A stretch of 64,000 nucleotides of DNA. It comes from Rhododendron vialii. Its lineage: Eukaryota > Streptophyta > Magnoliopsida > Ericales > Ericaceae. Each line of letters starts with the position of its first letter. Position 1 is the first letter of the stretch. Where the stretch lies: NCBI RefSeq assembly GCF_030253575.1, contig NC_080566.1, positions 28,906,001 through 28,970,000 on the forward strand, written 5' to 3'. The translations under genes and the position numbers were made by a program. This document shows, piece by piece, positions 9,909-64,000 of the stretch. A model generated the notes under the pieces. That model did no database searches. It was not told the DNA's origin and saw only the letters and a program-made list of their open reading frames with translations.

Positions 9909-12507
9909 TCATTTTCCTCCAACATAACTGCCCTGGCCTTTTACGTGAGCAGGCTTAACCACATTTCTATCCACCTTAACTACTTTTACAACATTAAAAC
10001 AAGTACATGAAGAACAAAAGTCCATAAGAGCAGATTGCAAATAACAGTCAGCTTCTTCGGGCCCAAAAAGCCCCTTCACAAAAGCCACAAAAATCAGCAC
10101 GGATGCAAACTTCCAAAAAACCGCACTGTAATGCCCACTCCAGCACCAATAAACCAGCCTCAGCCGAGAGTTCATCAAGAGATCGAGGCTGGTCTACAAG
10201 CAAGGTGAGTAGGTCCGATCTCTACCAATACCACAGAAGAAGAATTACATTTAGCTACATGATGCGCCACCTCTTGACCACCCTCATCCACCTGAACCCA
10301 AGCCATTACCCCACAACCCGAACTAGCATGCCAAGCCCCATACGTGAGAAAAAACTTAAAGCCCAGCACCTCCATTTCTCCACCTTTGAACACAAACTGC
10401 AAATTTGAACACAGACTGCAAATTGGGACTCCTTATGACAGACCCATGGCCAGCTCCGGGTTCAAGAACATCTTGAAACCCACACTTCTTCTTAACCGAC
10501 CTGTATAAATTCCTGTGACCTGAAAAACAGGTCAACGCATTATCGAAAACATTAACCGATTCCCAATTAGCACTTTGAAATAAGGCATCATTACGCACCA
10601 CCAAATACACCACAATGTAAAAACCGAATCCCAAATCAACTACTTAAGAGGCACCATCAATATCCACCCATCAAACCAAACCCCAAACGAGACTGGCATT
10701 TCCACATCAAAGTTAAAACCCAAGTGTGATGCCCTCCACAACCTCTTAGCAAACCAGCACTGGAGAAACAAATGCTCAATCATCTCCAAGTTTTGATCGC
10801 ACGATGGACAACACGGATCAACACTAATATTCCTTCTAAGCAAAGCATCCTTGACAGCCAAAATTCTATGCAAAACCTTCCAGATGAAAAACTAAAACTT
10901 TGGCGGCAAACCCAGACCCCAAACTTTCCCCCATGGCCCAAACAAACTCTTAGCCTCCTCAAAAGCTTGACCATGAGTTCTCGAAAATTGAAACAAATAT
11001 GCCGACTTGACTGAAAAAATGCCATTTTTAGTGTGCTCCCAAGTAACCTCATCCTCAATAGTAGAAACTGGTACATACACTCCAGAATTTTCTGAGCTAC
11101 CTCTCTCAGACAAAACATAGAAATCAAAGGAGCTCGCCACTCCCTAGAACTCTGATCAAACAAATCTGCCACTTTAAAACTACTAAAATGCTGAGACATA
11201 TCCCTTCCAGCATAAGGATTCTGGAGTTTAGGGATCCATTCCGCCTTGAAGATATCTATCTTAGTCCCACTATCCACTCTCCATTTTAATCCTTCTCTTA
11301 ACAGCTTCTCTCCCCATAGAATGCTTCTCCAGCCCCATGACGAATTAGAAACAGCTTTACCATCCAAAAACTCATTCCAAGAACAATATTTTCCAGCAAA
11401 ACTGATGAAAGCAATGAATCAGGATTTTTAAAAATCCTCCAAGCCATCTTAGCGAGCAACGCCGATTCAAACAAGCTAAATCTCGCAAACCTAACCCACT
11501 CTTACTCTTAGGCAGACAGCAAATATTCCATTTCCGCTATACGAAACCCTTGTCCTTCTCACCATGCCACAAAAAACTGAGTAACAACACTTTTAACCTT
11601 ATTTAAAATACACAGGAGCTCGAAGCACCAAAAGCAAATAAATGGGTATGGTCAGCATAACATGCTTAGCCAAAACCAATCTAGCCGCAAAAGGTAACAA
11701 AGGAGCCTTCCAATTACTTAACTTGAATCCGATCCATCACACGAGAAAAAAGACTCCCTTTCTGACAAGTAAAATCTAAATTAGCCCCCAAGTAAATACC
11801 AGGTTTATCAACACATTTGACACCGAAAATACGTTGTAACCATTCCACATCCCTTATCTGCATATTAGGACTCACAAATAACTTAGACTTAACAAATTTG
11901 ATTTTCTGACCCGCCTGGTCACAATAAATATCAAGAAGCAGTTTAAGACACCAAGCATGATCCATACCATTTTCCATAAAGATAAAACAGTCGTCCGCAA
12001 ACAAAAGATGTGAAATGCAAGGAGAACGAGGACTTACAGCAACTCTCCTGCACACCTTATTGGAGGCAAACTCTGCTAGACCATCTGAAAGTGCTTGAGC
12101 TACCAGGATAAATAAATATGGCGAAAGAAGATCTCCCTGATGAATCCCACAAGTCAGTACAAACGACCTTGATCTATTCCCAATGGCAATAACCACAACA
12201 GAGAAGGAGACCGTGGTAAATCATTGCCTGATCTGATCCAATTTTCCCACCTTTGACTAAAACCCATAACCCGAACCATATTGAGCAAGAAATCCCAGCT
12301 AACTCTGTCATACACTTTATCCATATCCAACTTCAACGCAAAAAACTTCTTGCCACTCCTTTTCTTCCGGATGAACTCCAAAGTCTCATGAGAAATCACA
12401 ATATTATCTGAAATGGCGCGCGAAGGCACAAAACCATTCTGAAATCTAGAGATCAGGCTACCAAGAACTGACCCAAGATGATTAACAAACATCTTGGTAA
12501 TCAACAT
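9909..12507 (-). mobile_element. 5'-truncated, decayed LINE (non-LTR retrotransposon) ORF2 fragment
   Basis: Broken minus-strand frames keep the usual order of plant LINE ORF2 domains. Reverse transcriptase comes first (about 12,500-11,710), with the palm motif KLDMDKVYDRVSWDFL and the FADD catalytic motif near 11,995. A zinc-binding RT-associated region follows (about 11,370-10,640; SWGWRSILWGEKLLREGLKW and the C-x2-C block CPSCDQ). An RNase H-like tail ends it (about 10,400-9,910). The endonuclease and ORF1 are missing, as expected from 5' truncation. Several frame changes make it a dead copy. No clear poly(A) tail or duplicated target could be fixed. Confidence 0.85.
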
Positions 12508-12512
12508 CTGGG

Positions 12513-12703
12513 TAAGGGTTTCTTTATTTTGTTATTTTCTTCTCTGTTTCCTATCAAACCAAACAAGGAAAAATTATTTTCCTTAATTTCCTTTCGTTTT
12601 GTTTCTTTCTTCTCTGTTTCCTATCAAACCAAACAAGGAAAACTTATTTTCCTTAATTTCCTTTCATTTTGTTTCTTTTCCCTAAGTTCCAAACAAACCC
12701 TTA
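12513..12703. mobile_element. Small MITE with an internal tandem duplication
   Basis: The ends TAAGGGTTTCTTT and (inverted) TTAAGGGTTTGTTTGG pair. Between them a block of about 70 bp (TCTGTTTCCTATCAAACCAA, then ACAAGGAAAA...) is repeated twice in tandem. It abuts the truncated 5' edge of the LINE. A diverged related stretch lies at 3,210-3,310. Confidence 0.6.
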
Positions 12704-14754: not shown

Positions 14755-17700
14755 TCATGAATAGCCTTGACCGCTGGGCCCTCTCACTCTTAAGAACTCA
14801 TGCCGATAAAACTCATCAAAAGACAAACGGTTTTCTGCCAAGATGGAGAGAATTGTCACCTTTGACATCAAAATGTGGAAGAACATGGGAATATATATCG
14901 GTTTATGGGAGATAAAGAATTTCTAAACCTGGCTTGATAGACAATAGTCTCGAACACATGTCAACACAATCAGGGTGCAACCCTGGAAGGATGAGCTTCG
15001 AAAATGGAAGGCACGTACATGACTGGATATTCCGCAGAAGCTGGAATAGAAATTGCTTTCAGAGGAAACTGGAAATGCTATATTTGAGGAATACTTCGAG
15101 TATAAGATAAAGATGCTACCTGAACATTCGTTCTACCACAAAAGGGTGGGTAGCCGTGCAGAAGTTCAAAAAGAATCACACCAATGCTCCACATGTCAAC
15201 CTAAAATAAGGCTGATTTAAGTTTCATGCATTCTAACCGATCAACAGAATTGAAAACTTCTACCTTATCATCATACTCTTGAAACTGGAGGACTTCCGGA
15301 GCCATGTATAGCGGAGACCCGCAAACTGTCTCAACGTGGTCATTTGGAAGCATCATTCTGTTCCCAAATTATATTTGGAACCATTAGATAACTTTTTACA
15401 TTAGCAACCAAATTTCCAATATTTGAAGTCACTACTTTCGAGTTTCCTCAGCCATTTATTACCGGGAGAGACCAAAATCAGCAATTTTAAGCACTGCATC
15501 ACTCTGAGGGCTTGAAAGCAGGACATTCTGCTTTAACAAGGGCATTAACATTAGCAAGTCTGAGCTCACTCAAAAGTACACAACACTAAAAAATAGGAAT
15601 TGAGGTCAATATGAATAATATGATCAATGTCAGCATCATTGAGGAATTAAGTGATGGAATGCATTTTCTTCCCACAACAAAGTATGTAAATAAAATATAA
15701 AAAACAAAAATTTGGCAACAACAATGCCCATTGATTTGGAGTTAGATGATTTAACATGATATAAGAGCCAGGCCTTTGGAGGGCATGGACAAGACTCTCC
15801 ATTTCATAGCAAGTGATTCCCCTTTTGTTTGCAAAACGAGGTCACTTTGTTTTGTTGTAACCCATATGTTACGGCAGACTTGGAAGTTATGCATCATTTG
15901 TTTACCTCTCCATGTGCAAGTGAGCTTCACCCATAAGGGGGAGTATTAGACCTTGCCCAATATTGATAACTAACTCAGGATTACTATATGTTCGATTGTG
16001 GGCATCTTTTTTATTTTTGATAAGTATTGTGGGCATTTCTATTCACCGCTAATAATTTTTACGGTGGATGCTTTAACAAGTAAAATGAGTGAAACTAAGG
16101 TTTCTTGCTCTCTCAGCATAGAGCCATTTATGTCTACTATTTGCATGACACCCCAAATCCTATTGTTTAGAGCTTATCCTAAATAGGTTAATAATTATTA
16201 GGTCCAAAACTAGTGTATGCCACTCCATTTATCGTCAATTGGTTTTGAGTTGGATGCTTCAACATAGTAACATAGCTAGGTTTCAAAGGCTTTTGGCAAG
16301 GCTCTCTACTATCTAGTTCATACTAATGATTCCCTCTTCGTTTGTAAAGTATGTGTGCGTTGCTTTGTAATCTTCATATTATGGATCATGTGTTTACCTC
16401 TCCACATGCGAGTTGGGGATCACACGTGGAGGAGCTTGTTAAAGCTTGTCCCGCTCCCGTATATCATTGCAACTTGGTTTTGAGTAAGATGCTTCAACAC
16501 GTACTATACAGTAAGTATTAAATAGGAGAACCATTCCTACGGCGGTTTTGGTGTTTCGCGGCGGCTACATCTTTGGTGTTTGGGATACGCCCCATTTGCT
16601 TTTATTGTTTTATCTGGGGGCTTTTAGGCCTCTTAGGTGCTGCACTTTGTCCCTTGGTTGGCATCTTGCCAATTAAGGGCCTGGGTTTCGAATGGGTACT
16701 TGTTGCCTTTCTCCTTGCTCCCTTTGATCTTGGTATCATTCAAAGATTAATAATTAAAAAAATCCGCCGTTCAGAAAAAATAGAATGAGAGCTGGAAAGG
16801 TTGTCACACTCTAGAATTACATAGCAGCACAACCACTGATGCCGTCATGCAGAGAGAGAGAGAGACCAACAAAGGAATAGTATCTCTAGGAGTGGATAAG
16901 CATACAAATATCACATACCTCTGGTTTCAAATCTCGGTGAACGACATGATGGGAGTTAAGCACCTTCAAACCAGCTCCTGCAATAAGGGGACCGATGCCA
17001 CTTGCAATATTCAATTTCAAACAGGAAGAAAATGGCAATGATAAAAATATTAGTGGTAACAAGACTGCAGTGAATAATTACCAAGCTGTTGCATAAATTC
17101 TCTGGCATTTTGTTCTTGAACTCTTCCATGTAGGTGAATGTAAGAAGATAGAGTTCCCCCGGCACAAAACTCCAAGACCAAGAAGACACAATCTTCAGTC
17201 TGAGAAGAAAAAGGGCAGGTACCAGATTAAGGGGGTTGGTGACAAACAGGCTTGAGGGAGCTTGCTTTTAATTGGAGTTTCATTTGGGTCCAGCCAAATT
17301 TCAATTTAAAACTCGTTACCAATCTGAACTTCTATCAATCCCCGTGTGAAATGCATCTTCATTTCTTAAAGTAGCATGCACCTTCAATTTACTTTTGTTC
17401 CCCGAAAAGAGAGAGCATTTTCTGCACTCTGAATGCTTGGAACAAACTAATGCCTTCCATGGTAATGTAGTAAAAGATACCAAGTATCTACGGTCTAAAC
17501 GCACCAGAAGACAGAATAATACATAAACAAAGCACTTTAATTTGTTCAAGAGGAATACAGTTTGCAGCCATATTGCAGCTATTCCTTTCAATATGGGATT
17601 CTAGGGAGCAGCAACACAAACATCTTTGCATCGTCACCTCAGCTAAACCAAGAAATCCAGACATTGGCCTTCCCATGCAGAAAGAAAATAGAGCACACGA

Positions 17701-17911
17701 GTGTACCAGCGCTTGTCATCTGCCTTGAGACATACTGCTTATATTGGTGTTGTTTGTTGGTTGAAGTCGACAAAAAGTGGCTATGCTCCAGTAGCAGCTT
17801 TACATGTAATGGAGGGAGTTCACTAAACACTAAACACCCTTAAATGAAAAATAACTGGAAACCCAAATGTCCCTCTATCCCATCCTTAATCCCACCTTTT
17901 CCAATCTTTTT

Positions 17912-17976
<65 letters not shown>

Positions 17977-19875
17977 TTAGGTTCCGGTGAGGGATCCCTC
18001 ATTTTAATAAAATGAGGGACTCCCCTTCCCGATTGAATTTCGATGATCCGAGCCGCTCAAAGTGATCAGAACGTGATTTTAAGGGTCCCCGTGAGAAATC
18101 AGCCAAAAAAATGATCGGGAAGGGCTTCATCCGAGCAGTTTTCATTGAATGGTTCAAAAAAAACTGCTCGGATGACGCCCTTCCCGGTCATTTTTTTTGC
18201 TGATTTCTCGCGGGAACCCTTAAAATTACGTTCTGCACACACTGAACGGTTCGGATTTTCAAAATTTGATCGGGAAATGAAAGTCCCTCATTTTAACAAA
18301 ATAAGGGATCCCTCACTTGAAAATTCCTCTATATATATATATAAACAGCAATCGGAACGTGCCTGATTGTGGTGGGGTAGGTTTTCACCTTAAGGACTAG
18401 TAACAGAGTAGAAGTAAATGAAGAAGAGCAACAGGAGTGGAGAGTTCGCAGACACGCAAATCACTTTGATAGGAAAGATGATGTTGGAATGAACTTCCTA
18501 ATTCAGATGGGAATACGCATGGCAGAATCAAAGCAGAGAAGTTTCCAAATTGACTCAAAGTAACTGATCACTTCACTCCGAAGAGAAGAAACCCCAGAAT
18601 TACAATTAATCAAATGCTACGTCTCAGATACAGAAACGAACTTTCTTGTATCAAAAGAAAAACCAGAATGAAAGGAGAGTAGAGAAGAGTCCCACTTCGA
18701 GGAGGGGAGAAGACCTCCGAATTGCTCCGATTGAGGAGAACCGGACCTCTGTACTTCACCATACAAGACTTTGATAAATATTCACTTGCTCCTATATCCA
18801 TGAGGGATACTTGGTATTTACACACATCAATCATAATAGATAACAACCATCAACAACACCTCCAATACCCCCAACTATGTAGGACATAAAATAGCTAACA
18901 ACCCACAAAATTAGAAACTCCCCGTTTAAGTGACTGCTAGACACATAAATAAAACTAAAAATAATAACTTAACAAAAACCCTAGAAAACCAAAATTAAGG
19001 AAATGGGTATGTCTCGGACACCCTAGGAACCAAAATGAGTAATTTTTTTGTTTTAATACTCAGGTGTCTGGGCCAGCTTACGCGCACCTCGACTAATACT
19101 GAGACCACAAACCCACCGTCCACCAGTGGGCCTGTAGTTTGAAATATCGGTATCGGTCTCCATAATGGTATCGTATGTGATGTCACGATTTCGGGGCATA
19201 TTAGTTTAGCTTAGCGGTATCAGTGCTTAGCGGTATCAGTGACCGGAGGTGTGAATTCTTTAAAATTTTGCACATCATATCACCGATTCCATCGTTACGT
19301 ATTGACTCATACCGGCTGTAATGTCCGCCGTTACTAATCACCGATAAGATAAGTATGCGATTTTCCTTCACACCCCAATACCGGCAGTATCGGGACTCGG
19401 TACCTATCGGTAGGTATCCCGATATTTCAAACTATGGCGGCCCCAAGCCGGAGCAAATGCTTTCATGTGGACTGGCCCAAAGGGATTGATGGCACATGAG
19501 AGCTTTAGGAGGAAGCAAACCCCCTAGGGTTCAAATGGGTAAGTTTCAGAAACGATTTCTAAAATAATTAATTAAATGGGTAAGCAATTAATGACGAGAA
19601 TTTGGGACAGAGAGACCAACGTGGAAGACGTCTAGAAGGCGAACAATGTTCGGGTGGTTGACGGAGGACAAGAAGTTGAGCTCGCAGTCCAAGGAAGTTT
19701 TGAGGCGGCGAGTGAGTTTGGAGAGGCGGACCTGCTTCAGCGCCACCACTTGGCTGGTGTTCCGGTGCTTGGCCTTCCACACCGTCGACGTCGTCCCACC
19801 GCCGAGCTTTTCGGTCAAGTTGTAGTCACCGACGGTGAGTGGCTCGGCGAGAGCGGTGGAAGTTGGAGATTCCAT
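14755..19875 (-). CDS. ATG1t: Serine/threonine protein kinase ATG1t (autophagy-related, kinase-domain-only form)
   Basis: Eight exons (minus strand): 19621-19875, 17082-17199, 16919-16977, 15463-15527, 15264-15357, 15120-15200, 14929-15040 and 14755-14834. All have GT/AG borders and the phases join, giving 287 residues. The kinase core is complete: Gly-rich loop LGGGTTSTV (24-32), catalytic Lys47, HRDLKPEN (138-145), DFG (161-163) and GSPLYMAPE (179-187). It ends soon after the kinase domain ([14 protein letters not shown]), so the long C-terminal region of classical ATG1a-c is absent. This fits the plant ATG1t subfamily, although the Arabidopsis member is longer by about 120 residues. ATG1 kinases act at the start of autophagosome formation. 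ATG13 lies 1.7 kb upstream on the same strand. Introns 1 and 3 carry transposon insertions. Identity is by pattern recognition. Confidence 0.9.
15720..16499 (+). mobile_element. Two TRIM-like retroelement remnants in ATG1t intron 3
   Basis: The clearer copy is about 16,197-16,499. Its ends share GGTTTTGAGTTGGATGCTTC followed by AACA (ending 16,263) and the near-identical 16,437-16,499 block starting TGTTAAAGC. The left end is followed by a decayed primer-binding site for initiator tRNA-Met, and the right end is preceded by a purine tract. The other remnant has a better primer-site match (TGATATAAGAGCCA at 15,756; intact form TGGTATCAGAGCC) and a purine tract (AAGGGGGAG) at 15,935-15,943. Short terminal repeats with no coding interior indicate TRIMs. 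Confidence 0.6.
17916..17973. repeat. (TA)n microsatellite
   Basis: A near-perfect TA run of nearly 60 bp. It forms the left flank of the foldback element that follows, in intron 1 of ATG1t. Confidence 0.95.
17974..18330. mobile_element. Long foldback element inside a (TA)n tract, ATG1t intron 1
   Basis: Two arms of about 150 bp face each other around 18,145. GAGGGATCCCTCATTTTAAT at the left pairs with the inverted right end, and TGATCGGGAAGGGCTTCATC pairs with GATGACGCCCTTCCCGGTCA. TA microsatellites flank it on both sides (58 bp left, about 13 bp right), as for elements that target TA repeats such as the rice Micron family. It is non-coding; if transcribed with ATG1t pre-mRNA it would form a long hairpin. 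A partial copy lies at 30,290-30,540 beside ATG13. Confidence 0.8.
18344..19133. other. ATG1t intron 1, unassigned part
   Basis: No exon was recognised. A second copy of the dispersed GTCTGGGCCAGCTTACGCGC repeat sits at 19,064-19,100. Confidence 0.4.
19134..19434. mobile_element. MITE with TAGTTTGAAATATCGG ends in ATG1t intron 1
   Basis: TAGTTTGAAATATCGG at the left recurs inverted at the right (CCGATATTTCAAACTA, allowing one mismatch). The interior is rich in CGGTATC motifs. Superfamily uncertain; no intact target duplication. Confidence 0.65.
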
Positions 19876-21612
19876 TTACAAAGTCACAACGCGTTAAGGG
19901 GAAACAAGTCTTACGATCTAAACCGTTTGTTTCGACAACAAACAATATTTGATATTGCAGCTCGGTAACTGATGACTTGCAACCTTGTGGTGCAAGAGTG
20001 CAGTGCTTCCGGCAATCTATGGTTATATTTCATTTTGACTCCTGTTAATCTGAGCCGACAGTAATTTTTAGCAAAAAAAATGTCACCTTTTGGCCCAAAA
20101 AAATACTTTTTGGCCTAGAAAGTGATTATTTTTCAAAATATTTGGGTAAAAATTAAAAAAAAATTATTTTTCCGATTCTTCAATAACCCACAAAAATTTG
20201 ACGCAAAATTAACAAATACGAAAAAAAATTCAAATAAGAACAAAACTCACATGTTCAAGTTATGTTCACAATAATAAAAATTAAGAACCAAAGACAGCCA
20301 AAAGTCACAAAAAAAGTTGGGCCGAATGAGGCTTTAAGATTTTTGTTAAATAAATAATTTTAACTCGTAAATCTGTGAAATTTTTATTACAATTAAAATA
20401 TGTAAAATTGATGAATAATTTCAACAGAATTCTGCAGCATGTAGAACACCTTATCTGCATATCCGCGAAGATTGCTGCGGTCCTGCGGATAAGCATAGGA
20501 GCACAAAATAACGACCTCGTTGTAATTGAATGCAAAACACCCACCGTTGTTTCTAGTAAGTAAAAGATGTCATTGATACATCCATTGGAATAGTTGGGAC
20601 TTGTTTCACCTCCTACCAAACTTATTATTGGATTATTTCTAACATTACCAGTGAGAAAATTTGACATGGCAAAATAATGTTCTCACCTTTAATTCTGTAA
20701 ACTTCCCTTGAATTGTCGTCCCTCTCTCTTCTTTTTCCGGAGTATCCGAAAATGTACAGGCGAAGTTCTAAAAAAAAATAAATTCAAATTTGACTAGATA
20801 TTTACTAAATAAAGTTCTATTAACTTACAGAAAAATATTCTAATTATTATTAAGAACTCAACGGGTCCTATGTCTCACTCAGAAGTTCTTCCCAAATAAA
20901 TCATCATGCTCTAAAATGTTCATCAGTTGCAATACCAAAAAGGGGGGCAGAAATAGAATCCTTAGCAATTTGCAAATTTGCAATGCTGAAGAGTCATACC
21001 CCGGGAGAGAGCCAACCAAAGTGATACAACATTGAATATTCAGCTTACGCCGATGAGCTATGAACAAAATATGGATCAAGTATATATCACAATGAATCCA
21101 TACACCCTTTCCCATATGTTGTATATATACAATAATGAACAATCGGGACACAGTGAGTGCTTTATACATACAAGTCATATAGCTCAACCCAACATTTACC
21201 CTGGGTCGTATAAATAAACACAACTAGAGATATCTGTGTAATACATACGTATATACATGCACTAAATATACGTGCACTAAGATATTTTAGCAAAAAAGAG
21301 GAGACCGAATTCCGTAGTTTAAGCTGTGGCATGAATCTAAACTCCAAAACCAAAATGCTGTACATATCTCAATAGCATTTGTACCAACATGTGCTCAATA
21401 CTACTAAAATCCTGTCAATCCAGTCCTTGATGAAAGACTCGTAAGCTGTGCGTGGATCATAGATTTATAAAGGGCAAGCAAACAATAAGGTAGCCGATTA
21501 CAAGAAATAAAGCAAAGTAGCTAAATTATATTCCCTGGTTTTCAAATCATTTCAGTTTCCCTCGTTGAATCCCTCCACAAATCCACAATCCAAACACGGC
21601 CTTACAGCATCG
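19876..21612. other. ATG13-ATG1t intergenic interval
   Basis: It spans 1,737 bp between the ATG13 stop and the ATG1t start. It must hold the ATG13 3' end and the ATG1t promoter and leader. A decayed AT-rich repeat related to the 3.4 kb foldback lies at about 20,040-20,340. No other gene was recognised. Confidence 0.6.
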
Positions 21613-24600
21613 TTATTTTGTCAGTATAATGGATCGCATGCCTTGCGTAGCCAACGAGTCTTTCGTATCCATATATCCCCTGAGCTCATCTAATGCATTG
21701 GCTGTTGTCTTGGGCAAAATATGCCCAGAAGATGCTACACTTACAGCAGCAGCAACACATTGAACCCTTGGCGGGTCAGATTTTATATTTTGCTCAGTTG
21801 AGGTTAGAGGCCTAGAGGATTCCGGCGAGTTAATAGAACTGGAGAAGTCAAGGCGGAGAGGTGGGGCCCTCTTCAACATGTGAAAAAGAGCAGCAACAGC
21901 AGCATCTTGGGTTTTTCTGACCTGAAACAATCCTCCAGGCTCAAGTGGCTCGCATGGATGTCCTTTCTGATCAAAAGATGCAGGTCTGATAGATGGAGAA
22001 AGAACACAAGTCAAAGTTTGCTCATGCACAAGAAGAAAGTATCAAATTCATCTGAACAATGATTCCCATTCAAGTTACATTGACACGGTCCAAATTACGG
22101 AAAAGGAGATCACAAACTCAAACTAAGGCGAAGTTACAGGTAAAGAACACATATAATAAAACTAAGGTGAAGTAAGTGAAAAGGAATAGATAAATTGTTT
22201 GCGTTGCATATTTAAGTTATCAGGTTTAGTATAAGAAAGTCATATGGAAGTAATTCACAGAGTGAGATCCACACTGCAATTGCCAAAAACCATCACTTAC
22301 TTAGGGTAACCTATTCGAATTCAATAATTTGGACAAAAAAAGGTTCAACACTCTTGAAATGACGATGAAAATGTTTGTTGGATCTCCTTATTCAAGTTTT
22401 GGATCGTTAGAAAGCTACGTTAAATTTGTTGTTATAACGTTGTAGGCTCCTAGTATGCACATCAGTAATCAAACAGATATATCTTTGGAAAGAGAAGCAC
22501 AATCCTCAGAATATGTACACACGTATTGCTTCTTTTCTTTTCTTTTTCAGGCAATTTTCTCCATTTCTATTTGTTTTTAGCATTAGAAACAACAAACAGG
22601 GTCACGGTACCGTTTACGACTCAAGAACTAGTCATTAGTGTTGGATCATTTCCTATTTCCAAAACATCAAATAGATTGCGACCGGTCTTTCTTGCATTTC
22701 TTTGCAAATAATATAACCCTTTACACACAAAGCATATGTCTACGTACTTTATGAAGCTTAAATTCCTTAATTTTTGGAAGGTTTGCCGATTAAATCAATT
22801 CACAAAATGAAAGCCAAGTCCTTTTTCATTTCTTGAATTATAGGAAACACTAGGGCAGCATATCAGTGAACTTTATATCTTTGAAGATAGTTAAGTCCCC
22901 CAAAAGTATCCATGTTCTGACCCATAATTCAAAAGAAGAAAAAGGTCGTAATCCGACAAATAACATAACCACAGAGAGGTAGGCTGTGTTACATGGACTC
23001 ACATACATACAACATGGGCTACAGGCATGTGTCCAAGCACCAGACATCATAAACACCAATTACTAGGATATTAGGAGACTAAGGACAGATGGATACAGAC
23101 ACGCGGACACTACAGGGTCACAAGCACTGAAAAGAAGGGAATTCTCAAATGTATGATCCACCTTAGATCTCCCCCGTTACGTTAGGGTGACTCGAGAAAG
23201 CTTGAAAGGGAATTCCAAGAGCCCTTAAGCAGCCGAGGGGTTTCGTCTTTGAATAGTCACCATGTTCTTATTCAATTATTGTAATTATTGGCTTACCGAT
23301 GGATGTCCCTATCTCTATGTGCCTGGCTCCATGACTACCATGTATTTTTATTAAAAAGAGGGAAGCGAACGTTTTCTAATTTTTAGAATGGATTTGATTT
23401 AATGGAAAGTTTTTTTTTTTTTTTTTTGTATCGGTGAACAAGAATTGGGGATCGGATGCGGGCAAACAGCAGTGCCCCCCGCTCCTTAGTTCTTCATCCT
23501 CTTCCTCCTGCAAACAAGTCCGATTTTTTTGGGAGAATCCCACACCCGTACCCGTATCATGTCGTGTAGACACGGGTACTTCCCCCAAAATGGAGGATCC
23601 GTGTAACGTAGAGTAACACTATGAAAATACAAACCACGAGTCACGGATAAAGTATTCAAGAACTAAACAACCAAGAAAATCTTGACTCTAGGCATTGAAT
23701 TTTGACCTTTTAACGAGTACTTAAAGTGTCCTAGCATTGTCAGACTAAAAATATACAAAAAAAAAAAATGAAAACAAATTAGACATGTCCAACACGTGTC
23801 TGCAGCGTTTTGTGTCGGGTTGTGTCTGGGTCACATGCATGTCAGACACAAATAGGTGAGGTCAGTAGAAGTAAGGAGATATAGTATAATGTTTGATACG
23901 AGTACGGAGACACCCTTCAACATTTAAATACCACTAATGCTTTGGTGACCAGTACCACATTTTGGATACCATGTGATGTGTCACTATTGTATTGGTAGAA
24001 TATGCCCCATTTATCATGTAGTGGCACATTTATCATGTAGTGGAACACATTTTACTAAAGCAATGATAACACCTCACATGGTACCCAAAATGTGGTACTC
24101 ATACATGGTCACCGTAGCATTGCTCTTTAAATACATTGTGCATACGTTATATACTAACACAAGATATTGTGAAATACTCAACGTGTACTTGAAATTACAT
24201 ACCATTGGAGAAAATACGCATTTCCATCACCAAATATTTTCCAAAATACTCTACATATCATCAACATTTGAGACAGTTAAGAATTGAAGGTGGGAAAAGA
24301 ATGGAAAATTTTTGGAGACATTACTGGGTTATTGGATACCACTCTCACTTTGACAGTGTTCTAAAAGTTGCTAGGCCGATTAATCGATGCCTAGAGATTA
24401 GTCGTTTTTTATTTTTTCAAATGTTCTCCACCCCCCCTCCCCAAGTTTTGAATAAGTAGAACAACTTAAGTACAACAAAACATTAGACATTAAACATTCA
24501 TCCATCTATCATCCATTGAAATCGAACTTTTTAATATATACCATATAGAAACATCAAAACTAAGTAGCAAGTACTACCAAATAACTAGTCAATCCACAAT

Positions 24601-26896
24601 GCAAAGTTCATTGTTCATAGTTCAAACCAAACGAAACCAAGTAGGGCCAAATAGCTAGTCAATTACAAAGTTAAATGCTCAAAGTTGAAAACCAAATTGA
24701 ACCTACCGGTCAATTACTCAATCTTCTTCTCCATATCCCTCCAACACCCATAGGAGTAAATTACCTCCACAACTAAACCCCTTAAATTTCAAAAATCACA
24801 TATTTAATCCTAATTAATCTTGCCTAGTCGTCTAATTCTCCGATTAATCCACCGAGCCACTTAGTCACCGCCTAGCCGCCAACTAATCCACCTAACCGCC
24901 TGATCCTGCCAAGCCGCCTTGCCGAATAGTTGCCGACCAATCCCGCCTAGCGGCTGACTAATACGCGCTGGCGCCTAATTCCATGCCTAGGCCCTTGGTC
25001 GAGGCGGTTGGGCACCGCCTAGCGCCTAGGCAGCAATCCAGGCCGATTTTTGGAACACTGCTGACCCTGAACAAATGGTCCTAACTGACCGGTTGGGCTT
25101 AAAACAGACTCTTTAAGCTTTAAAACGACAATTGGATTGCAAGAAACAGCTTCAGATGAGCCTAGAGCAAGCCTGCTAGGTAAGGGCTCAAAACAGAGGG
25201 AACCAGTGAAGCATGCTAGTGGGTATGGTCATTCACATTTCAGGCAACCCTCAAACTGGCCACCGTAGTGAGTCTGTCTGGCTACACCCCAGGATCGGCA
25301 ATTGCGTGAAGTTTTGGGCTTAAACGCCAAGTGGCATGTTAGGACCAAACTTTTGACTTAGTAAGCGCTACTCCCTCCGAAACTCGTATGGAAAACACCC
25401 CAAGTCATTATTGACCCACTATGAATACCCATCATCCCCATTCGAAGCTATCCAAGTTGACAAAGGATTTCAAACCTCCACCCCAAAAGCTCCCAAAATT
25501 CTGCATTCTTACTCCAACATAACCAACATTATAGTCATGAATTATCATGCGTAGCACTAATGCAAAATCAAGCTGTTGCAGCATCATATTCTACATGTAC
25601 AGCTCAAATCACCATGAGATTCCAAATCTAATTTGCTAAGCTACGTATGAGTCGTATGACTGCTTGTAACGAAAAATATCTCTCCTTTAAGTTTCTGTTT
25701 GCAACACCTAGAGATCCTCAGAAAATCTGTTCAGAACAAACAATAAACAAAAATGAGTTTGAAGCCAATAACAAAACCCATGGTGAACAAAGGTCTTTCT
25801 TCCATTCTAGCATAACTTTCTAGTTTAGGTGACTATCAAGCTAAACTCCAAGAATGATGAGTAGCATCAAAATGCGTATAGTGCTTTTCTTGTTACTTTC
25901 AAATGAGCTACACCACCTCATTACATAGTTGGACCTTTTCTCATAGACTCAATCAGCCAAATGATGTGATCGAGGAAAAAAGCTATAAAGCTGATACATC
26001 TCACTCTTCGACTGGGTCAATCAACTATAGGGGCCAATTGACCACTGAAAGAAGTTATATGTGAAGAAATTCCCAAGGCAAGAAAATATAGAAGAACATG
26101 TGCTGATTTCCGGATCATAAATGATGGAATATAGACAATATTACTATTTCAAATGCTATCCAAAGGAATTTATAATCAGTAAATTCTAGGCAATATTACT
26201 ATTTCAAATGCTATCCAGTACTTCAAAGCAAATGCTGATTTCCGGATCATAAATGATGGAATATAGACAAAATCTTCCAAAGGAAACAGCAAAGAATTGA
26301 AACTCCGCCCCCATGTTGTCAAAGACTAAAACAGGAATGATCGAAAGATGCAAAACAATAAACAAACTCTTGAGAGGAAAAAAATCACTGAATGGGCTTG
26401 TAGTCGACTTCACTTCACCGCTTACATACTTATCACATCATTTTATCAGTTTTCTAACAAATTCTTATGCCAATTGACTCCTACAAGCATAGTGGATCAA
26501 CAAAGGAAGGCAGATCGACAAAAATTTGGATTGGCAAGATTGTGAAACCACATGATGTTTTTTTAACTCTTTTACGCAATGATCAGCATGATGAGAGTCG
26601 AGAGATCAATAAATAAAAGGCAAAAGTATATAAACACCCTCTCAACTATCACTTTTTCCAACAGAGACCCCCTCACATTTAAAATCGCCCATACAGACCC
26701 CCTCAACTAACCTTCGTTGCTCAAGTGACACCCTTCCGTCTCAAAACCGTTTGTGATGAACCCCCTCATCCATAAATCAGATAAAAATACCCTTGTTGCA
26801 TTACATACATACACCCCCTCTAACCCTTATTTTTCTCCCCTCTACAAACAGCCTCTAATCAAAACCCAAAACCAGCAAACAGATCTGAAACTTTGG

Positions 26897-26943
<47 letters not shown>

Positions 26944-29640
26944 GGGGCTGGTTCCACCCATAAAGTTTTTGACACTCTATCTCAACCATTAAAATCAATG
27001 ATTGGATTAAAACTTCAAAGGACTGTACTCTCCTCTCCCCTCTCAATCACAAGTAATCTCTCCCTCTCCATCTAAACTATTCTTTCTCTATACCCTCACC
27101 GACTAACCACTGGTTTCGTCCCACTCCGACGACCTTCTTCTCTCTCTCTCTAAAGAACCCAAACAAGTTACCAAAAGGAGATGGGAAAAGCAACACAACA
27201 GCCGCCATAGCCGCCGCCGGCTGCCACCACCATTCTCCTCCACTTCTCTTCTCCCACACCTCTCTCCTTTCCCTCCTCTTTTTCCCTTCTCATTTCTTCT
27301 CAGTAAAAGAACCACTGCGGCACTTGCCACCGTCGCGCCACGATTTCTGCGCTATTTTTGGTGGAATCTAATCTTTTATGGATGAAATAAGTGATGATGC
27401 AATTTTAGGGTTATAAACAAAAGGTTCTCTTTAAAATGATTGATGTAAGGAAAAAAGAAATTGTATAAAACGAAAAAAACGATTAGAACGACTGATAGGA
27501 TAAGGGTATAATATAAATGTTAGGGGGTCTCTGTGGAACAAAGCGATAGTTGAGGGGGTGTTTATGTATTTTTGCCTTATAAAAAAGGGTATCTTAGTCA
27601 TTTCCTCCATTCCATTAATGGAGTTAACATTTTTTCGTTTCCAATCGTTGAGGGGGTCTGTATGGGCGATTTTAAATGTGAGGTGGTGTCCATAGAAAAA
27701 AGTGATAGTTGAGGGGGTGTTTATGTACTTTTGCCTAAATAAAATATGTCAAATAACTTCTGAAAAATGAAATTTAAAATGAATGGCATATGCTCTTTTG
27801 TGGCGCTTTCTTTTCTAATAAAATCTTTGCTGATCCAGAAAGTAGTATAAACGTTGTATGTTAGAACCTCATAGCCGCAAGCATGCATGCATGCAGAAAA
27901 GCAAAATATCACTAGAGTAGGGAAAACGAGAACATTTACGAAAACATAGGAAACATATGGAAGTGAATGTGACAGGTAAATCACAACCAATACCAAATCA
28001 ACATATCACCAATATTACCTGCTACCTCTATCAACCATGTCAACATCATCCACAGCGAAGGGGCCAGAAAACTCAGAATCAGCAAAATCCTCCTGGAAAG
28101 ACAACCTACTCGAGGTTCTGGAAATTGATTTCCGCAATGGGCTGTTGGATGATAACTTCAGCCCAAAACAGCTTCCACTTTCATTTTTCCTGAAGGAAAG
28201 CAGCTACAGCAACGAACAAAAAGCACTATCAAAATGAAATAAGGTAGGAAAATCCATAGCTCACCATATCAATAAGCCAGCTTAAGATACCTTCTCAACT
28301 GTTGACCTGTTCTGAGCCAGATCAGAACTTTTCTCTGTCTTGGAAGCACCAGGCCTTGTAACCTTCAGAGGAGGCGAAGGAGGCAAATTTTGATAAATGT
28401 TTGACAAAGGAGCACTACCAAGCTTAGATTCAGGTATGCTAACTGGAGCACTTTCAGACTGCAACAGAACCTTAGATACATGGCTACTGGGAATATAGGC
28501 AGGTGGCGACTGGGATGGAGAGGGTGTAAAAACAGAAGGCCAATACACATCGGTATTGCTACTGTTTTCATGAAGCTGAGGGGTATCCGGAAAATGAAGC
28601 AGCAAGTTTGTAGGAGGGATACAATGGGAACTTGGTTTAGAAACTGAAGCATGGGAATCGGAGTTTGTGGGTGAAGGAGGTGCCACTCTGTGAATATCAT
28701 CACTCCAGCTATGATGCCTTCCAAAGGGAGAGGAAGACTGAGAACATCGAGGAATGGATGGGAACCTTTTTAACGGGCATGCCAATGGACTCCCAACATA
28801 ATCCTGTATAAACTGTGGGGTTGTAGGTGTTGACGGTTCAGAATTCACATCAGAGAGGGAAGAATAATAGGACACGGAGAGACAAAGCCTACCACAAAAA
28901 GTTTCCACAGGCACAAACTCGAACTTCTGCATCTCTGACTCTTCTTGACGGGTGAATGGCTCAACAAAAGAGGACACCCGATGAGTTAGGTTAAATTTGA
29001 GAATTTGACCAGTTGAAATAAGGTTGCGAAAGAGTTTATAAGCAGGCAAAAGTCTAATCATATAATACAATAGCCTTAAAAGCAGTATTGATTTCTTATA
29101 AGACGTAGGCAAACTATTACCAGTTGACCTCTTGCTTCCAGAAGTACAATCTCTACCACTCTTTCCATTTTCATACTGCACTACCCATCTCTCTATAATT
29201 TTTTCAGTCTTCACCTCATGTCCGAATTCATTAACTTCTGAATTCCAAATATTCGAAAACTGCTCTTTTGCTGACAAATTTCTTACAATGCCCCTTCTAG
29301 GGGAACTACTCATTGGGTCCAGACCACTTCTTCCTTGCAGTAAAATAATGTCAATCACCATTGGTTCAAGATAACTTTCACGCCAAAAATCAATGTTCTC
29401 TAGAGCTGCTGGACAATCCCTCAGTGCTAAATTGAACCATTTATCCCTTGTTGTAACACTAGAAGACGATGATGAGGACGAAGAGGGGGACAATATCACT
29501 TGTTCTCCACTATAATTACGAGATGATACGTGGGGACACCTCGATTCAAGGATAATTTGCCTACTTTTTGCGAACAATTCAATGATTATCTGTTCCATTT
29601 TCGCGGGTTCTGACTGCGTATGACCATGAGAAGATGCCAT
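21613..29640 (-). CDS. ATG13: Autophagy-related protein 13 (ATG13), regulatory subunit of the ATG1 kinase complex
   Basis: Three coding exons on the minus strand: 28291-29640, 28019-28203 and 21613-21985. The junctions GAGAAG|GTATCT, CTGTAG|CTGC, AGCAG|GTAATA and TATCAG|ACC keep the frame, giving 635 residues. The start ATG opens MASSHGHTQSEPAKMEQII, as in plant ATG13. The N-terminal part (about 10-240) is the HORMA region, with EQIIIELFAKSRQIILESRC, a serine run and ERWVVQYEN. The middle is a long Ser/Pro-rich disordered stretch where kinase regulation occurs in the family. The end keeps SFQEDFADSEFSGPF and QDAAVAALFHMLKRAPPLR. ATG13 scaffolds and activates ATG1 when nutrients are low. Intron 2 is 6,033 bp and full of transposons. 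ATG1t follows 1.7 kb downstream. Confidence 0.93.
22100..23935. other. ATG13 intron 2, proximal part
   Basis: AT-rich intronic sequence. A 15-base T run at about 23,413-23,427 is the only low-complexity feature. No exon was recognised in it. Confidence 0.45.
23936..24123. mobile_element. Foldback MITE (copy B) in ATG13 intron 2
   Basis: AATGCTTTGGTGACCAGTAC at the left pairs with the inverted right end (GGTCACCGTAGCATTGC). ACATTTTGG and CCAAAATGT also pair inside. It is the same family as 5,817-5,993. A 19 bp internal direct repeat (ATTTATCATGTAGTGG) is seen at its centre. Confidence 0.75.
24354..25060. mobile_element. hAT-like non-autonomous element in ATG13 intron 2
   Basis: The ends CAGTGTTCTAAAA and TTTTTGGAACACTG are inverted repeats of the CAGTGTTC type common in hAT elements. 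GCCGATT and GCCTAG(G) motifs just inside both ends also pair. The right half (24,810-25,050) is an array of CCTAGCCGCC/TAATCC words. No exact 8 bp target duplication remains. Confidence 0.6.
25061..26618. other. ATG13 intron 2, middle part
   Basis: Unassigned intronic sequence. An imperfect direct repeat of about 55-60 bp is visible (the TGCTGATTTCCGGATCATAA segment at 26,101 and 26,232, and CAATATTACTATTTCAAATG at 26,138 and 26,191). Confidence 0.45.
26619..27735. mobile_element. Mutator-type non-autonomous element (MULE-MITE) with a 9 bp target duplication, ATG13 intron 2
   Basis: Ends of about 95 bp pair closely (left GGCAAAAGTATATAAACACC; inverted right GGCAAAAGTACATAAACACC). They are flanked by an exact 9 bp duplication, TAAATAAAA, at 26,610-26,618 and 27,736-27,744, the Mutator signature. 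A second, older right-type end (TATTTTTGCC) lies internally at about 27,576. The interior has a TACA/TA microsatellite (26,897-26,943) and a GC-rich coding-like stretch (about 27,180-27,340) that may be captured host DNA. No transposase. Confidence 0.88.
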
Positions 29641-29710
29641 ACTCTTCGTCAATAACCAATCCCTAACAATGTACAATTGGAACCCTAAACTTTCACTTCA
29701 AAGCAATTCA

Positions 29711-33167: not shown

Positions 33168-33369
33168 TGGGTGTGGGGGGGTGGGGGTGGGTTTAAGAAA
33201 ATCAAGCCAAAATTAGCTGGTTTTTCGGATCAAAGAAATGTTTGAAGTTTTCTTTTTCCCTAAAAATCTTCTTCTTCTTTTTTTCAGGGCAGAAAATGCT
33301 GGTCGGCTGAAACTAGCTTTTTGCTAGTCCAAACAAGGACTTGGATAATAAAAGTGTGACAGTGAAAGT

Positions 33370-33441
33370 TGGAGATGCGGGGTATCGATCCCGTACCTCT
33401 CGCATGCTAAGCGAGCGCTCTACCATCTGAGCTACATCCCC
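33370..33441 (-). tRNA. tRNA-Ala (anticodon AGC)
   Basis: A 72 nt cloverleaf on the minus strand. The acceptor is GGGGATG/CATCTCC with discriminator A. It carries the G3-U70 pair that marks alanine tRNAs. Box A reads TAGCTCAGATGG, the anticodon loop TTAGCAT with AGC centred, and box B GGGATCGATACCC. There is no intron. The CCA end is not encoded, as is usual for nuclear genes. Confidence 0.97.
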
Positions 33442-34150
33442 AATTTGATGCTAAACTTCACGTACGTCTTCATTTACCCTTAAAAGCTATAAGATAGAGC
33501 AGAGAAGGTCGATTTCTTCAATTTCTGCACACATAGATCAGCCCAGTCAACTTTACTTTTGAGTTTGCAATGCATTGGCCAAGTCCTTGAACCGTGTACA
33601 GAAGTGGGATGCAGCGGAAATAAGTACGTAGTACGTACTACTCTCTATCCAATTGCCGTAACAAGGCCATAGCTAGGTTGATTACGATTCGGGATAAGGT
33701 TGAGGAAATAAACCAACTCTATATAACCTACGACCGAATGTCGTTGCTCACATGCCAAGTTACCTACTAACTGCATCAGTTATTTGTCAGCTGAAACTAT
33801 AACCTTAGAATATCAACTATGCGGTCCTTGTTCTTGCCATTGCCGCCTCTTCGTTTCGTTTTGATCTGTTTTCAGCATAAGTATCAACTGTGAAGCGGTT
33901 GTTTCCGGGAACTACAAAAATGGAAAAGAAATTAATACCTATAGCCAACATATGCTGCAAGATTTTGTGTGATGGGAACACATTTTTGGGGGAAGCTTTG
34001 ATGATGGGGGCAAGAGCAGTACTACTGTTAACAATTGATGGATGTGCTGGTATATATATATATATAATATTCTTCAAGTAATTTTGTACCCTCAGAAAGT
34101 ATTTGTTGAAGACAAACTAAAATCTTTTGAAACCAATTTGAATGGGTCAG
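33442..34150. other. Intergenic DNA, no gene seen
   Basis: No recognisable exon. A plus-strand frame near 33,900-34,070 is short and its peptide was not recognised. Confidence 0.4.
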
Positions 34151-36809: not shown

Positions 36810-36815
36810 GCTGCA

Positions 36816-39614
36816 ATGTCGTACTTTCTCCATCAACGATCCCTCCACAACATTCTCTCAAACCCTAACCCTACATCCCCCAATGATTCTCCCACTGACC
36901 CCCCCAAATCCACCTCCATTTTCAGCAAAACCACCCTCTTACTCCTCTTATCCCTCCTCGTGATCCTGGGCGTCTTCGCCCCCTGGATCGGCACGCCTCA
37001 ATCTCTCTTCACCGCCTCTCGATCCTCCCAATCCAGGTGGAAGGACTACACGCTGGCCGAGGCGGCGGCCAACGTGGCCAAGAACGGCACCGTCATTGTG
37101 TGTGCCGTGAGCCAGCCCTACTTGCCGTTTCTGAATAATTGGTTGATTAGCATTGTGAGGCAGAGGCGTCACGAGCAGGTTCTGGTGATTGCTGAGGACT
37201 ATGCTACGCTTTATGAGGTTAATGGGAAGTGGCCTGGCCATGCTGTGCTTGTTCCTCCGGCTCCGGACGCGCAGACTGCGCATAAGTTTGGATCTCAGGT
37301 ACTTTTGGGTTCCGTAGTGTCTTGCATATTTCAGTGAAAATGTGATTAGTTTAAAGTTTGTTTCTTGCGATGTGTGTACTCTTTGATGTTTGTTTTGGGT
37401 TTTTCAAAATTGGGGTTAGTTGAATTTAGTTGGAAGTAAATTTGTATGATGATTAATTTCATCCGTAGAAGTGGTATGAAATTATTCAAACCTGTGTGGA
37501 AATTATAAGTGAACCCATTGAGCTGAAATTCCTAGAACCACCACTGTTGGTGGGTGGGTACGAGTGGCGTAATTGGCTGTTTCGATTCTGTCATGGAAAG
37601 CCTATCATCATATGGACCACTTTGCATTCACATTATGCCTCCTGTTCTTGGGGTAGACTTTTGCAGTAGCAATGTTGAATTTTGAGCACTGTCTTTGAGT
37701 TGATGCTTTAGCAGTTCCCCTTTTATTTAGTTGAGTAAGATAAGACTCCATGTCATATTTAAGGAAGAATCTATGCAGGAAATGGCATTTGAAAGGCCTA
37801 TTATTTTAAGTCTTGAAGAGAGAAGGTATTTTGCTTTCACCATTTGCCAAAAATGTGATAGGGGTCTCTTTGCCACTAGTCCTTACTAATTAGATAACGA
37901 GGTGTGGTTGGTTGTAAACCTGAACAACTCATAAAGTTTTCGGCCAGACTGAAGGGAGCATTTATTCTCTGATCAAACAGAACCTCGGAGTAGTACTCTA
38001 GCTCTTTCCTACATTTTGTTATTCTTCAACTAACTTCGTCGACCACCTTGATAGAGGCTTCTCATAATGACCTTGGTCACTTTCATTTTACAGGGATTCT
38101 TCAATTTTACTTCCCGAAGACCACGCCACCTACTGCAAATATTGGAGCTTGGATATAATGTTATGTACAATGATGTTGATATGGTCTGGTTAGCAGATCC
38201 ATTTTCGTATCTGCAAGGGAAGCATGATGTGTACTTCACAGATGACATGGCTGCAGTACGTTTGCTCACTTTACCTTCTAGTATTTTATATGTGTTAGTA
38301 CATCATACCTAAGCAGGGATGGACTGTGCTGGGGCAATATGCTATCAAAACCTAAACATCCCACATAAACTCTGCAGCATAAACCCTCATTAGTCTTCAT
38401 ACAAAATTATTTGGATACCCACTTCTCGTTTCTGGTCCTTTTACCTGTGTACGTGTAACTGCTGCTATGGCTTCATTCTAAGAAGTAGTTCTCTTCTCCA
38501 ATACGCATGCATGACTGCTATTAACGATCACCGGTCTTTTTCTTCCTCTTTGTGAAAACCAGGTGAAACCTTTGAACCATTCTCATGATTTGCCACCTCC
38601 AGGGAAAAAGGGCCGGACTTACATTTGCAGTTGCATGATTTACTTGCGCCCATCTAGTGGAGCTAAACTGGTTCTGAAGAAGTGGATCGAAGAACTTCAA
38701 GCTCAGCCATGGTCTCGAGCAAAGAAGTCAAATGATCAGCCTGCTTTTAACTGGGCATTAAACAAAACTGCAGGACAGGTGTGTTGCAACTTGCATTGGC
38801 CTTGTTATAATATTGCTTCTATGTTCTGTAAACCAAGTAATCTTCTTTTTTCTATGGTTTTTAGTTACCTTACAGGACATAGTTAAGAGCACAATTTAGA
38901 ACACCCATTAGAAATCTGCTTCAGCGGCCACCAAGATACCAATTATGGAATTAACACATTTAACCTCAATGTGGAGGTCTTGTCTGTCATCTACCAAGTA
39001 CTAGACTAAAAACTGATAGTTGTTTTTACTCGTTTCATAAGGAAAGAAAAAAACGTGGTCTAAGGAAGATGCAACACTCACTCTTCTGACTCTTCTTTTT
39101 CCTGCTATGTTCATCCTTGTCTCCTTTTTTAATCATTAGTTCTTCCACCCGTGGATTGTTAGGATAAGTATATCATTGGCAGTTCGTACCTTATTCTTGA
39201 GAATGCACCATATATTGTTTAAGCACTCAAACAATTGTGTTGAAGGTGCAGAGTAGAATAGTCATTTATGGGATTTGTATGTTGTTGAACGGTTGAGCTA
39301 CACTGATGCACCTATTATATATATTATGGGTATAATTGGATTCTTTTTTTCACCCTTTGAGCATGATCCTAACGAGTAGCTTCTCATAAATGTCTTCTTT
39401 GTTGCAGGTTGATCTGTATCTGCTCCCACAGGCAGCATTCCCTACGGGAGGGTTATACTTCAAGAATCAGACATGGGTTCAGGAAACTAAGGGAATGCAT
39501 GCTATCATTCATAATAACTATATAACAGGTTTTGATAAGAAAATCAAGCGCTTCCATGATTTCGGCCTCTGGTTAGTGGACGAACATGCAAAGGAGTCCC
39601 CCCTTGGCAGATGA
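36816..39614 (+). CDS. RGXT: UDP-xylose:RG-II fucose alpha-1,3-xylosyltransferase (GT77; RGXT/MGP4 type)
   Basis: Four exons: 36816-37298, 38094-38255, 38563-38778 and 39408-39614, all GT/AG and phase 0, giving 355 residues (known members are about 360). The protein is a type II Golgi enzyme. A short cytoplasmic N terminus precedes one membrane span (about 38-57, LLLLLSLLVILGVFAPWI), then a stem and the catalytic domain. The family hallmark DVD of GYNVMYNDVDMVWLADP (188-190) binds the metal and UDP-sugar. Other conserved blocks are FTDDMAAVKPLNHSHDLPPP, NDQPAFNWALNKT and the C-terminal FPTGGLYF...HNNYITGFDKKIKRF. It transfers xylose to fucose in side chain A of rhamnogalacturonan II in pectin. 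The ATG was chosen because it precedes the membrane anchor directly. The leader has two short upstream ORFs. Confidence 0.93.
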
Positions 39615-40598: not shown

Positions 40599-40670
40599 TG
40601 CGTCTGCCGGGAGTCGAACCCGGGTCTATTGCTTGGAAGGCAATTATCCTAACCGTTGGACTACAAACGC
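40599..40670 (-). tRNA. tRNA-Gly (anticodon TCC)
   Basis: A 72 nt minus-strand cloverleaf. The acceptor is GCGTTTG/CAGACGC with discriminator A, the anticodon stem ATTGC/GCAAT encloses loop CTTCCAA (anticodon TCC), and box B is GGGTTCGACTCCC. It has no intron. The longer open frame at 40,427-40,762 overlaps it and is not a gene. Confidence 0.97.
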
Positions 40671-48700: not shown

Positions 48701-49782
48701 CCTCTTGTCTTGGTGACCAATCAGCAGAATTACTGGAAATGTCCGATCAGGCATTTCCCATTGAAGAGTTTCGGGAGAATGAGGAGAATACAACAGGGAA
48801 ATCTGGGATCATACAAGGAGGTGAAGTTGAAGCTCCTCTGGATGCTGAAATTGGGGATGCAAATCTACTCAAGGAAGAGAAAGTAGTTGCAGATGTGGAG
48901 GATGGGGGAAGAGAGGAAGCTTTGGAATTCTATGAGGATGTGGCAGTTACACAAGCAAAACTTCTGGGGCAAAAACGAGGAGAAGATATTAGTCATGTCG
49001 TTGATCACGTGGAAATGAATAAGGGAGAGGATGAGGTCATCAGAGTAAAGGAGGGTGGACCACTTGACAATACCTGGATTGAAGTAGAGGAGGAGCGGCC
49101 TGTGCAAACACAAGGAGAAGGAAGTAATGTTGATGACATGTTGAATACATCTGAACAGCAGGAGCCAGAGGTTTTACTTCCACATAAGGAAATGCATGAT
49201 GCAGAAGGTTCTAGACCAAAGGAAGCACTTCCGGAGCTCTTGCCTTCACAAAATGAAATTCAAGGCGGAGAACGGAAGGATGCTGGCAATTCTTGGGAAG
49301 AAAAAGAAGTGCCTATTGAGGTAATTGACGAATGTAATAAGGAAATAACTACCGGAGAAGAAAATCAAGGGATGGTGGAGGTTGGACATGAGCCTGAGGG
49401 GCTAGAGTCAATCCATGGGGATGATAGAGTAATTGAAGCGCATTTTGCTCCAGGTGGTGCTGATGGACATGTAGCCGGAGGAGAACACATCCCTATGTCA
49501 CCAACAGCCTTAAGTCAGGTCTCTGTGGTAAGTGGAATGGAGTCAGAAAATCACAAATTACTTGAAGAAAATGAGAAGTTGAGAGAGATGATGGAGAAGC
49601 TAATTGAAACAGGGAGAGAGCAGATAACAGCCATATCTAACCTCTCCGATAGAGTGAAGGTTTTGGAGAAAAAATTGGCAAGGAAAAGGAAATTACGGAC
49701 AAGGCGAGTCAGGGCTGGATCTCTATGTGGTAAACCATCGACTGATGAGCTAGAAGGGAGGGCACATGGAGTTGCAGTGTGA
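45763..49782 (+). CDS. BAG6: BAG family molecular chaperone regulator 6 (calmodulin-binding co-chaperone)
   Basis: Two coding exons, 45763-47562 and 48160-49782 (ATTCAG|GTATGC and TATTAG|GGCATA), give 1,140 residues; Arabidopsis BAG6 is about 1,040. The N-terminal 150 residues are rich in Pro, Tyr, His and Cys. A long charged disordered region follows (150-520), then an IQ calmodulin-binding motif IIQSVYRGFEVRR (530-542) and the BAG domain (about 545-632). The exon junction falls within the BAG domain at residues 600/601, between LLLELDTIQ and GIHPSVRDF. The C-terminal half is acidic and repetitive, with a terminal coiled coil (about 1,060-1,115) and a basic tail. The BAG domain binds HSP70. 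Arabidopsis BAG6 is heat-induced and linked to cell death and autophagy in pathogen defence. The intron carries a Stowaway MITE. Confidence 0.94.
47626..48040. mobile_element. Stowaway MITE (415 bp) in the BAG6 intron
   Basis: The ends CTCCCTCCGTTC and GAACGGAGGGAG are flanked by TA (47,624-47,625 and 48,041-48,042). It fills most of the 597 bp intron that splits the BAG domain. GTCCCACTTTGGG and related inner words are typical of this family. Confidence 0.9.
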
Positions 49783-63597: not shown

Positions 63598-63833
63598 TCA
63601 ATTCCTACTGCCCAGAAAGTGGACGGGCCCAATTTGATTGGAAAGCCCATTAAAACTACAAAAGGATTGATAGTGGAGGATCCAAAGGGTGGCAGAATTG
63701 ATACATTTAAAATCCAGAGATTACTTTAAACCCTCAGAATATTCGGAAATCATTATGATCAGTTTTAATAATATTAGTTTACTTTTTTCTAACTCAAAAA
63801 CTGAAAATCACACCTTTTTCACTTTTCCCCCTC

Positions 63834-63840
63834 TATATAT
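63834..63840 (+). promoter_or_regulatory. TATA box of the edge gene
   Basis: TATATAT within CCCCCTCTATATATCTCCCC lies 81 bp before the start codon, in a good position for a short leader. Confidence 0.55.
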
Positions 63841-63914
63841 CTCCCCTGTGCAACCAACTCCAGAAAAAGGTATCAACTAGACCAAAAACTAAAAAACCAA
63901 CCACTCAAGCCAAC

Positions 63915-64000
63915 ATGTATGCTTCTACTTCCTCCTCTATTACTACTACTCAGCTCCTCCAAGACAGCCTTACACAATTCTACTCAAGAAGATTGCTCCT
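63915..64000 (+). CDS. 5' end of a new gene, possibly an ATL-type RING-H2 protein (truncated by window edge)
   Basis: Twenty-eight codons are open to the window end: MYASTSSSITTTQLLQDSLT then QFYSRRLLL-like residues. A TATA box and an A-rich leader (AAAAACTAAAAAACCAACCA) precede the ATG. The LLQD...FYSRRLL pattern recalls N termini of some plant ATL RING-H2 ubiquitin ligases (ATL78 group). That is recall from a short segment, so the product stays tentative. That a gene starts here is more certain than what it encodes. Confidence 0.45.
   Translation, partial: MYASTSSSITTTQLLQDSLTQFYSRRLL

Follow-up and report, generated by a model that had tools for sequence, protein, structure and literature searches.

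ATG13 and an ATG1t-type kinase gene side by side in Rhododendron vialii: probably an inherited neighbour pair

An ATG13 gene and a gene for an ATG1t-type kinase are direct neighbours in the window (the whole 64,000 bp stretch analysed, C10:28906001-28970000), and it is probable (we would put it at roughly 0.8) that they are an inherited neighbour pair, an instance of conserved microsynteny in which the ancestral order has often been broken. The same gene pair is closely linked in distant lineages (citrus, Medicago and this window), and we infer that these three linkages share one origin. The features on which the argument draws are the following:

14755..19875, minus strand: ATG1t-type kinase coding span; 8 exons, 287 aa, kinase domain only (Pkinase match and checked exon model)
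19876..21612, no strand: spacer from the ATG13 stop to the ATG1t start; 1,737 bp, GC 0.343, no recognisable gene
20063..20276 (about), no strand: short dispersed repeat (MITE-like), from an own-genome DNA search; ~190-400 bp upstream of the ATG1t start
21613..29640, minus strand: ATG13 coding span; 3 exons, 625 aa (PF10033 and GT-AG model)
63759..64000, plus strand: 5' part of a RING-H2 gene's open frame (284 aa in all), gene presumably of ATL type; zf-RING_2 E 2.4e-15, a possible syntenic marker

The two genes and the spacer between them

The ATG13 model, built from splice sites, has predicted exons at 29640-28307, 28189-28019 and 21985-21613 (1,878 nt, 625 aa plus stop); its introns, the second of which is 6,033 bp long, are GT-AG, and its frame is open to a stop. 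Pfam places the ATG13 N-terminal domain PF10033 on the open frame 28282-29697 (minus strand) with E 1.8e-38 over profile positions 2-229 of 233. Plant ATG13b proteins (At3g18770; MtATG13b, Medtr3g095570) have this N-terminal domain as well, and the lengths are similar, 625 aa for the window protein against 633 aa for MtATG13b and 620 aa for tea ATG13. By its resemblance to this type, the window gene is a putative ATG13b.

The predicted exons of the kinase gene lie at 19875-19621, 17199-17082, 16977-16919 and 15527-15463 (exons 1-4) and at 15357-15264, 15200-15120, 15040-14929 and 14834-14755 (exons 5-8), all on the minus strand, and give a model of 864 nt (287 aa plus stop) in which all seven introns are GT-AG, the first donor (GTTGGT) being weak. 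A Pfam search of the window's frames found the kinase match on the open frame 19588-19875 (minus strand), and in the model protein the Pkinase domain is complete (residues 18-276, profile 1-263 of 263, E 5.4e-70); its best PDB matches are ULK3 (E 1.7e-62), then ULK1 and ULK2. The model carries the usual catalytic motifs, the glycine loop, VALK, HRDLKPEN, DFG and APE, and its resemblance to At1g49180 makes it a putative ATG1t. When the window gene is set beside plant ATG1t genes (Arabidopsis At1g49180, Medicago Medtr3g095620, tea CsATG1t) by their published descriptions, the kinase domain is common to them and nothing distinctive was found in the window gene; its 287 aa compare with 290 aa in Medicago, 297 aa in orange and 283 aa in tea. 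Only 11 residues follow the Pkinase match, which ends at residue 276 of 287, and the protein has no further Pfam domain. Judged from this predicted protein, the window kinase lacks the C-terminal ATG13-binding region, like the truncated kinases described in passages of a pepper study, where the C-terminal part that acts in the complex with ATG13 is missing from CaATG1a and a like truncation is noted in Arabidopsis and maize (PMC4746239).

The first-pass annotation had described the two genes as lying on one strand, 1,737 bp apart, with a complete ATG1t and no other gene between them, and the Pfam searches and exon models bear this out. A hidden gene in the spacer was considered and rejected: at E 0.001 the two longest open frames there, of 125 and 114 aa, have no Pfam match, and the spacer shows a dispersed repeat only. 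With 40 of 2,800 candidates scored, this repeat gave 76 matches (75 besides itself), all inside 20063-20276, with copies on each of the 13 contigs and many of them as inverted pairs; the remainder of the spacer had no other own-genome match among the matches listed from the same scored candidates. In the assembly (532.6 Mb in 13 contigs) the window contains no N and lies well inside contig C10, which is 39.67 Mb long. An artefact of assembly or gene modelling could be suspected, since the models come from sequence alone, one splice donor is weak and a single assembly was used, but we regard it as extremely improbable in view of the N-free window well inside its contig, the intact frames of both genes and the linkage in two other species reported in passages of published tables.

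The window holds several other features. Probable exons of a nucleotide-sugar transferase-like gene, here called RAY1-like, occupy 36810-39614 (PF03407, E 8.4e-16 on 38055-38312). Large open frames at 45610-49782 (plus strand) match the BAG domain weakly (E 0.00034; 21.5 bits, where the curated cut-off is 23.4) and possibly represent a BAG6-like co-chaperone gene. An HSP70-like stretch at 50206-51241 covers only profile positions 218-437 of 599, and the next open frame is without a Pfam match, so the gene here may be incomplete or in decay. Apparent remains of a LINE-type element lie at 10780-12531 (reverse transcriptase PF00078, E 8.2e-9 on 12154-12531), and tRNA-Ala(agc) and tRNA-Gly(tcc) are called on the minus strand at 33368-33442 and 40599-40670, respectively.

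Linkage of ATG13 and ATG1t in other species

Passages of published tables allowed linkage to be judged in seven other species, and it is found in two of these, or in three of eight when this genome is included; six of the 13 species considered (castor bean, Rosa roxburghii, tea, foxtail millet, sugar beet and cotton) are left out of the count. In sweet orange, Cs1g05170 (297 aa) is tabulated against At1g49180, and Cs1g05100, tabulated against At3g18770, is the single ATG13 (PMC7215763, passages of its tables). In Medicago the tabulated positions put MtATG13b (chr3:43671041..43677624) and MtATG1t (chr3:43689826..43692334) 12.2 kb apart (PMC8616919). If locus numbers step by ten, six genes would lie between the pair in orange and four in Medicago, against none here.

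The remaining five species are unlinked in the same kind of published passages. The first-pass annotation had stated that Arabidopsis ATG1t and its two ATG13 genes lie on different segments, and the published locus numbers agree (At1g49180 versus At3g18770 and At3g49590). The Phaseolus genes are Phvul.010g120500 versus Phvul.002g269600 and Phvul.008g187800, and in soybean ATG1t is on chromosomes 4 and 6 and ATG13 on chromosomes 2, 5, 8 and 14 (both PMC8703869). In pepper, CaATG1a, which we took as ATG1t-type because it is without the C-terminal region, is on chromosome 8 and the ATG13 genes are on chromosomes 3 and 6, by gene numbers that come from three cultivar genomes (PMC4746239). Rice was judged on one of its three ATG13 genes, OsATG13c, with OsATG13a and OsATG13b left out, and here Os04g0686600 (OsATG1b) is unlinked to Os11g0162000 (PMC11013097). 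We took OsATG1b as ATG1t-type because it is 275 aa long (against 287 aa in the window) and is named there a homologue of AtATG1d, which is At1g49180 in a passage of another paper. Among the species outside the count, castor bean has its ATG1t on contig 29659 and its ATG13 genes on 30098 and 30206, Rosa roxburghii has ATG1t and ATG13 on separate contigs in the published passages, tea is listed by accessions that carry no positions, and for cotton ATG1t alone is given.

Could the adjacency be a chance event private to this lineage that has nothing to do with the linked pairs of orange and Medicago? Such a reading, like any case against common ancestry, can point to the five of seven judged species in which the published passages give no linkage and to the spacing, which differs between the linked species. 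However, on the assumption of 25,000-45,000 genes, the chance that one of the four ATG13 loci of this genome (below) directly adjoins a single ATG1t is about 2-3 in 10,000, a figure for this one pair that ignores the many related gene pairs of a genome. The corresponding rough odds of such close linkage are ~3-6 in 10,000 for orange and ~7-12 in 10,000 for Medicago, again with assumed gene numbers and with other related pairs ignored. For all three genomes, chance is therefore an improbable cause of such close linkage, and the shared neighbours at the Arabidopsis loci (below) also argue against it, so we consider private chance adjacency unlikely.

Copies in this genome and the Arabidopsis neighbourhoods

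A genome search with PF10033, in which 0 of 14 controls matched, found four ATG13 loci: the window locus, C8:478994, and two on contig C3 at 31.08 Mb. The C8 gene is closest to the window ATG13 (73% DNA identity over exon 1 and 62.7% protein identity over residues 1-443), and the C3 copies are about 36% identical to the window protein. These two ATG13-family genes (C3:31077194-31077814 and C3:31081121-31081741) lie ~4 kb apart on one strand and probably arose by tandem duplication within a more distant ATG13 type. The kinase search, with 136 of 1,397 candidates scored, gave 138 matches. Each of the six with 74-99% identity is a window exon and none of the rest exceeds 43%, so that among the candidates scored ATG1t looks single-copy in this genome. 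A search for full-length ATG1 with ATG1-like_MIT1 gave no match, but it read the genome exon by exon, matched 0 of 14 controls and carries no information.

No ATG1t was found within C8:440-540 kb or C3:31.06-31.11 Mb. The 73% identity in exon 1 had suggested the C8 locus as a duplicated segment; this stays unproven because neither ATG1t nor the other tested neighbours from the window region (the RAY1-like, BAG, HSP70-like, RING, BTB and lectin-kinase proteins) has a match within C8:440-540 kb.

The RING-H2 gene begins ~34 kb from ATG13; its frame runs beyond the window end to C10:28970610 and has its first ATG at 63915. From its motifs we assign it tentatively to the ATL type. ATL77, which we take to be At3g18773, lies beside ATG13b in Arabidopsis. 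By the locus numbers in published passages, Arabidopsis ATG1t (At1g49180) is near ZIK7 (At1g49160) and near ATL10 and ATL78 (At1g49220 and At1g49230), and ATG13b (At3g18770) is near ZIK5 (At3g18750). A passage of a paper on the ATL family (PMC3161093) ascribes the ATL arrays on chromosomes 1 and 3 to a segmental duplication, by which ATL78 and ATL75 would have arisen from ATL81 and ATL77. Since related neighbours (ZIK and ATL) stand at both loci, Arabidopsis ATG1t and ATG13b probably derive from one duplicated neighbourhood, of which each copy lost the opposite member of the pair. The presumably ATL-type RING-H2 gene near the pair here would fit with the ATL genes that accompany ATG1t in Arabidopsis, a comparison of marker genes and not of whole neighbourhoods, but the RING-H2 marker alone is weak because ATL genes are numerous.

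Shared ancestry and the question of function

Plant functional (biosynthetic) gene clusters place non-homologous genes of related function side by side. The window pair resembles them in consisting of non-homologous neighbours of related function, and differs in that it has two genes only and that binding through the usual ATG1-ATG13 contact is not expected. The first-pass annotation had proposed a lineage-specific or ancestral functional cluster; the ancestral part gains from the linkage in orange and Medicago and from the Arabidopsis layout, whereas the functional part loses from the truncated kinase and the frequent absence of linkage.

If ATG13 and ATG1t were held together for co-regulation, co-inheritance or read-through, it would fit that a review, although it describes ATG1t as possibly a new adaptation that the kinase family underwent in seed plants, still places it in its table under the ATG1/ULK1 complex (PMC6299029), and that the linkage recurs in the sweet orange and Medicago tables. 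In addition, pepper CaATG1a (as ATG1t-type), CaATG13a and CaATG13b are all among the 10 carbohydrate-starvation-induced genes named in passages of that study, though they are unlinked (PMC4746239). Nonetheless, we think selection for such a cluster very unlikely and do not adopt it as our main interpretation: the predicted kinase lacks the ATG13-binding tail, so adjacency does not imply binding, and linkage is often absent. A functional cluster should keep its linkage across lineages, and the published passages show it in two of seven species, besides this genome; it is missing in Arabidopsis, Phaseolus, soybean and pepper, and in rice as judged from OsATG13c, and the C8 ATG13 has no ATG1t in its 100 kb here, a frequency of absence that speaks against strong selection for keeping the pair together. 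In passages of the Medicago study, moreover, MtATG1t is high in leaves and MtATG13a and MtATG13c are high in roots, the linked MtATG13b being in neither list (PMC8616919). A milder version, in which an old linkage is under weak selection in some lineages through shared chromatin or occasional ATG13-ATG1t read-through that matches product doses in starvation, is in our estimate likewise very unlikely.

The reading we prefer, an inherited neighbour pair, would run as follows. An ancestral eudicot chromosome would have carried an ATG13 near ATG1t, and the linkage would have survived in this genome, in sweet orange and in Medicago. Arabidopsis and others would have lost it, in Arabidopsis probably by the loss of one gene from each copy of a duplicated segment. 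Each gene would presumably be driven by a promoter of its own and work separately, ATG13 as scaffold of the ATG1 complex and ATG1t as a free-standing ULK-like kinase, so that the products would act independently. We count against this independence the starvation induction of all three unlinked pepper genes, and also that MtATG1t, like 26 of the 34 Medicago ATG genes, goes up under drought in passages of the Medicago study (PMC8616919). The pattern is like that of eudicot microsynteny with loss after genome duplication, where some lineages retain the neighbours together and others have them divided between duplicated segments, and is unlike it in that the neighbours here happen to bear names from one pathway. 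The passages of plant ATG papers that bear on ATG1t make no mention of an ATG13-ATG1t linkage, which may be undescribed in that literature.

If the pair is inherited in this way, same-pathway names side by side should not be read as a functional cluster, and the linkage would aid orthologue assignment across crops. The separation of ATG1t and ATG13b in Arabidopsis would then be explained too, the two genes being what is left of a single ancestral neighbourhood after its duplication and thinning.
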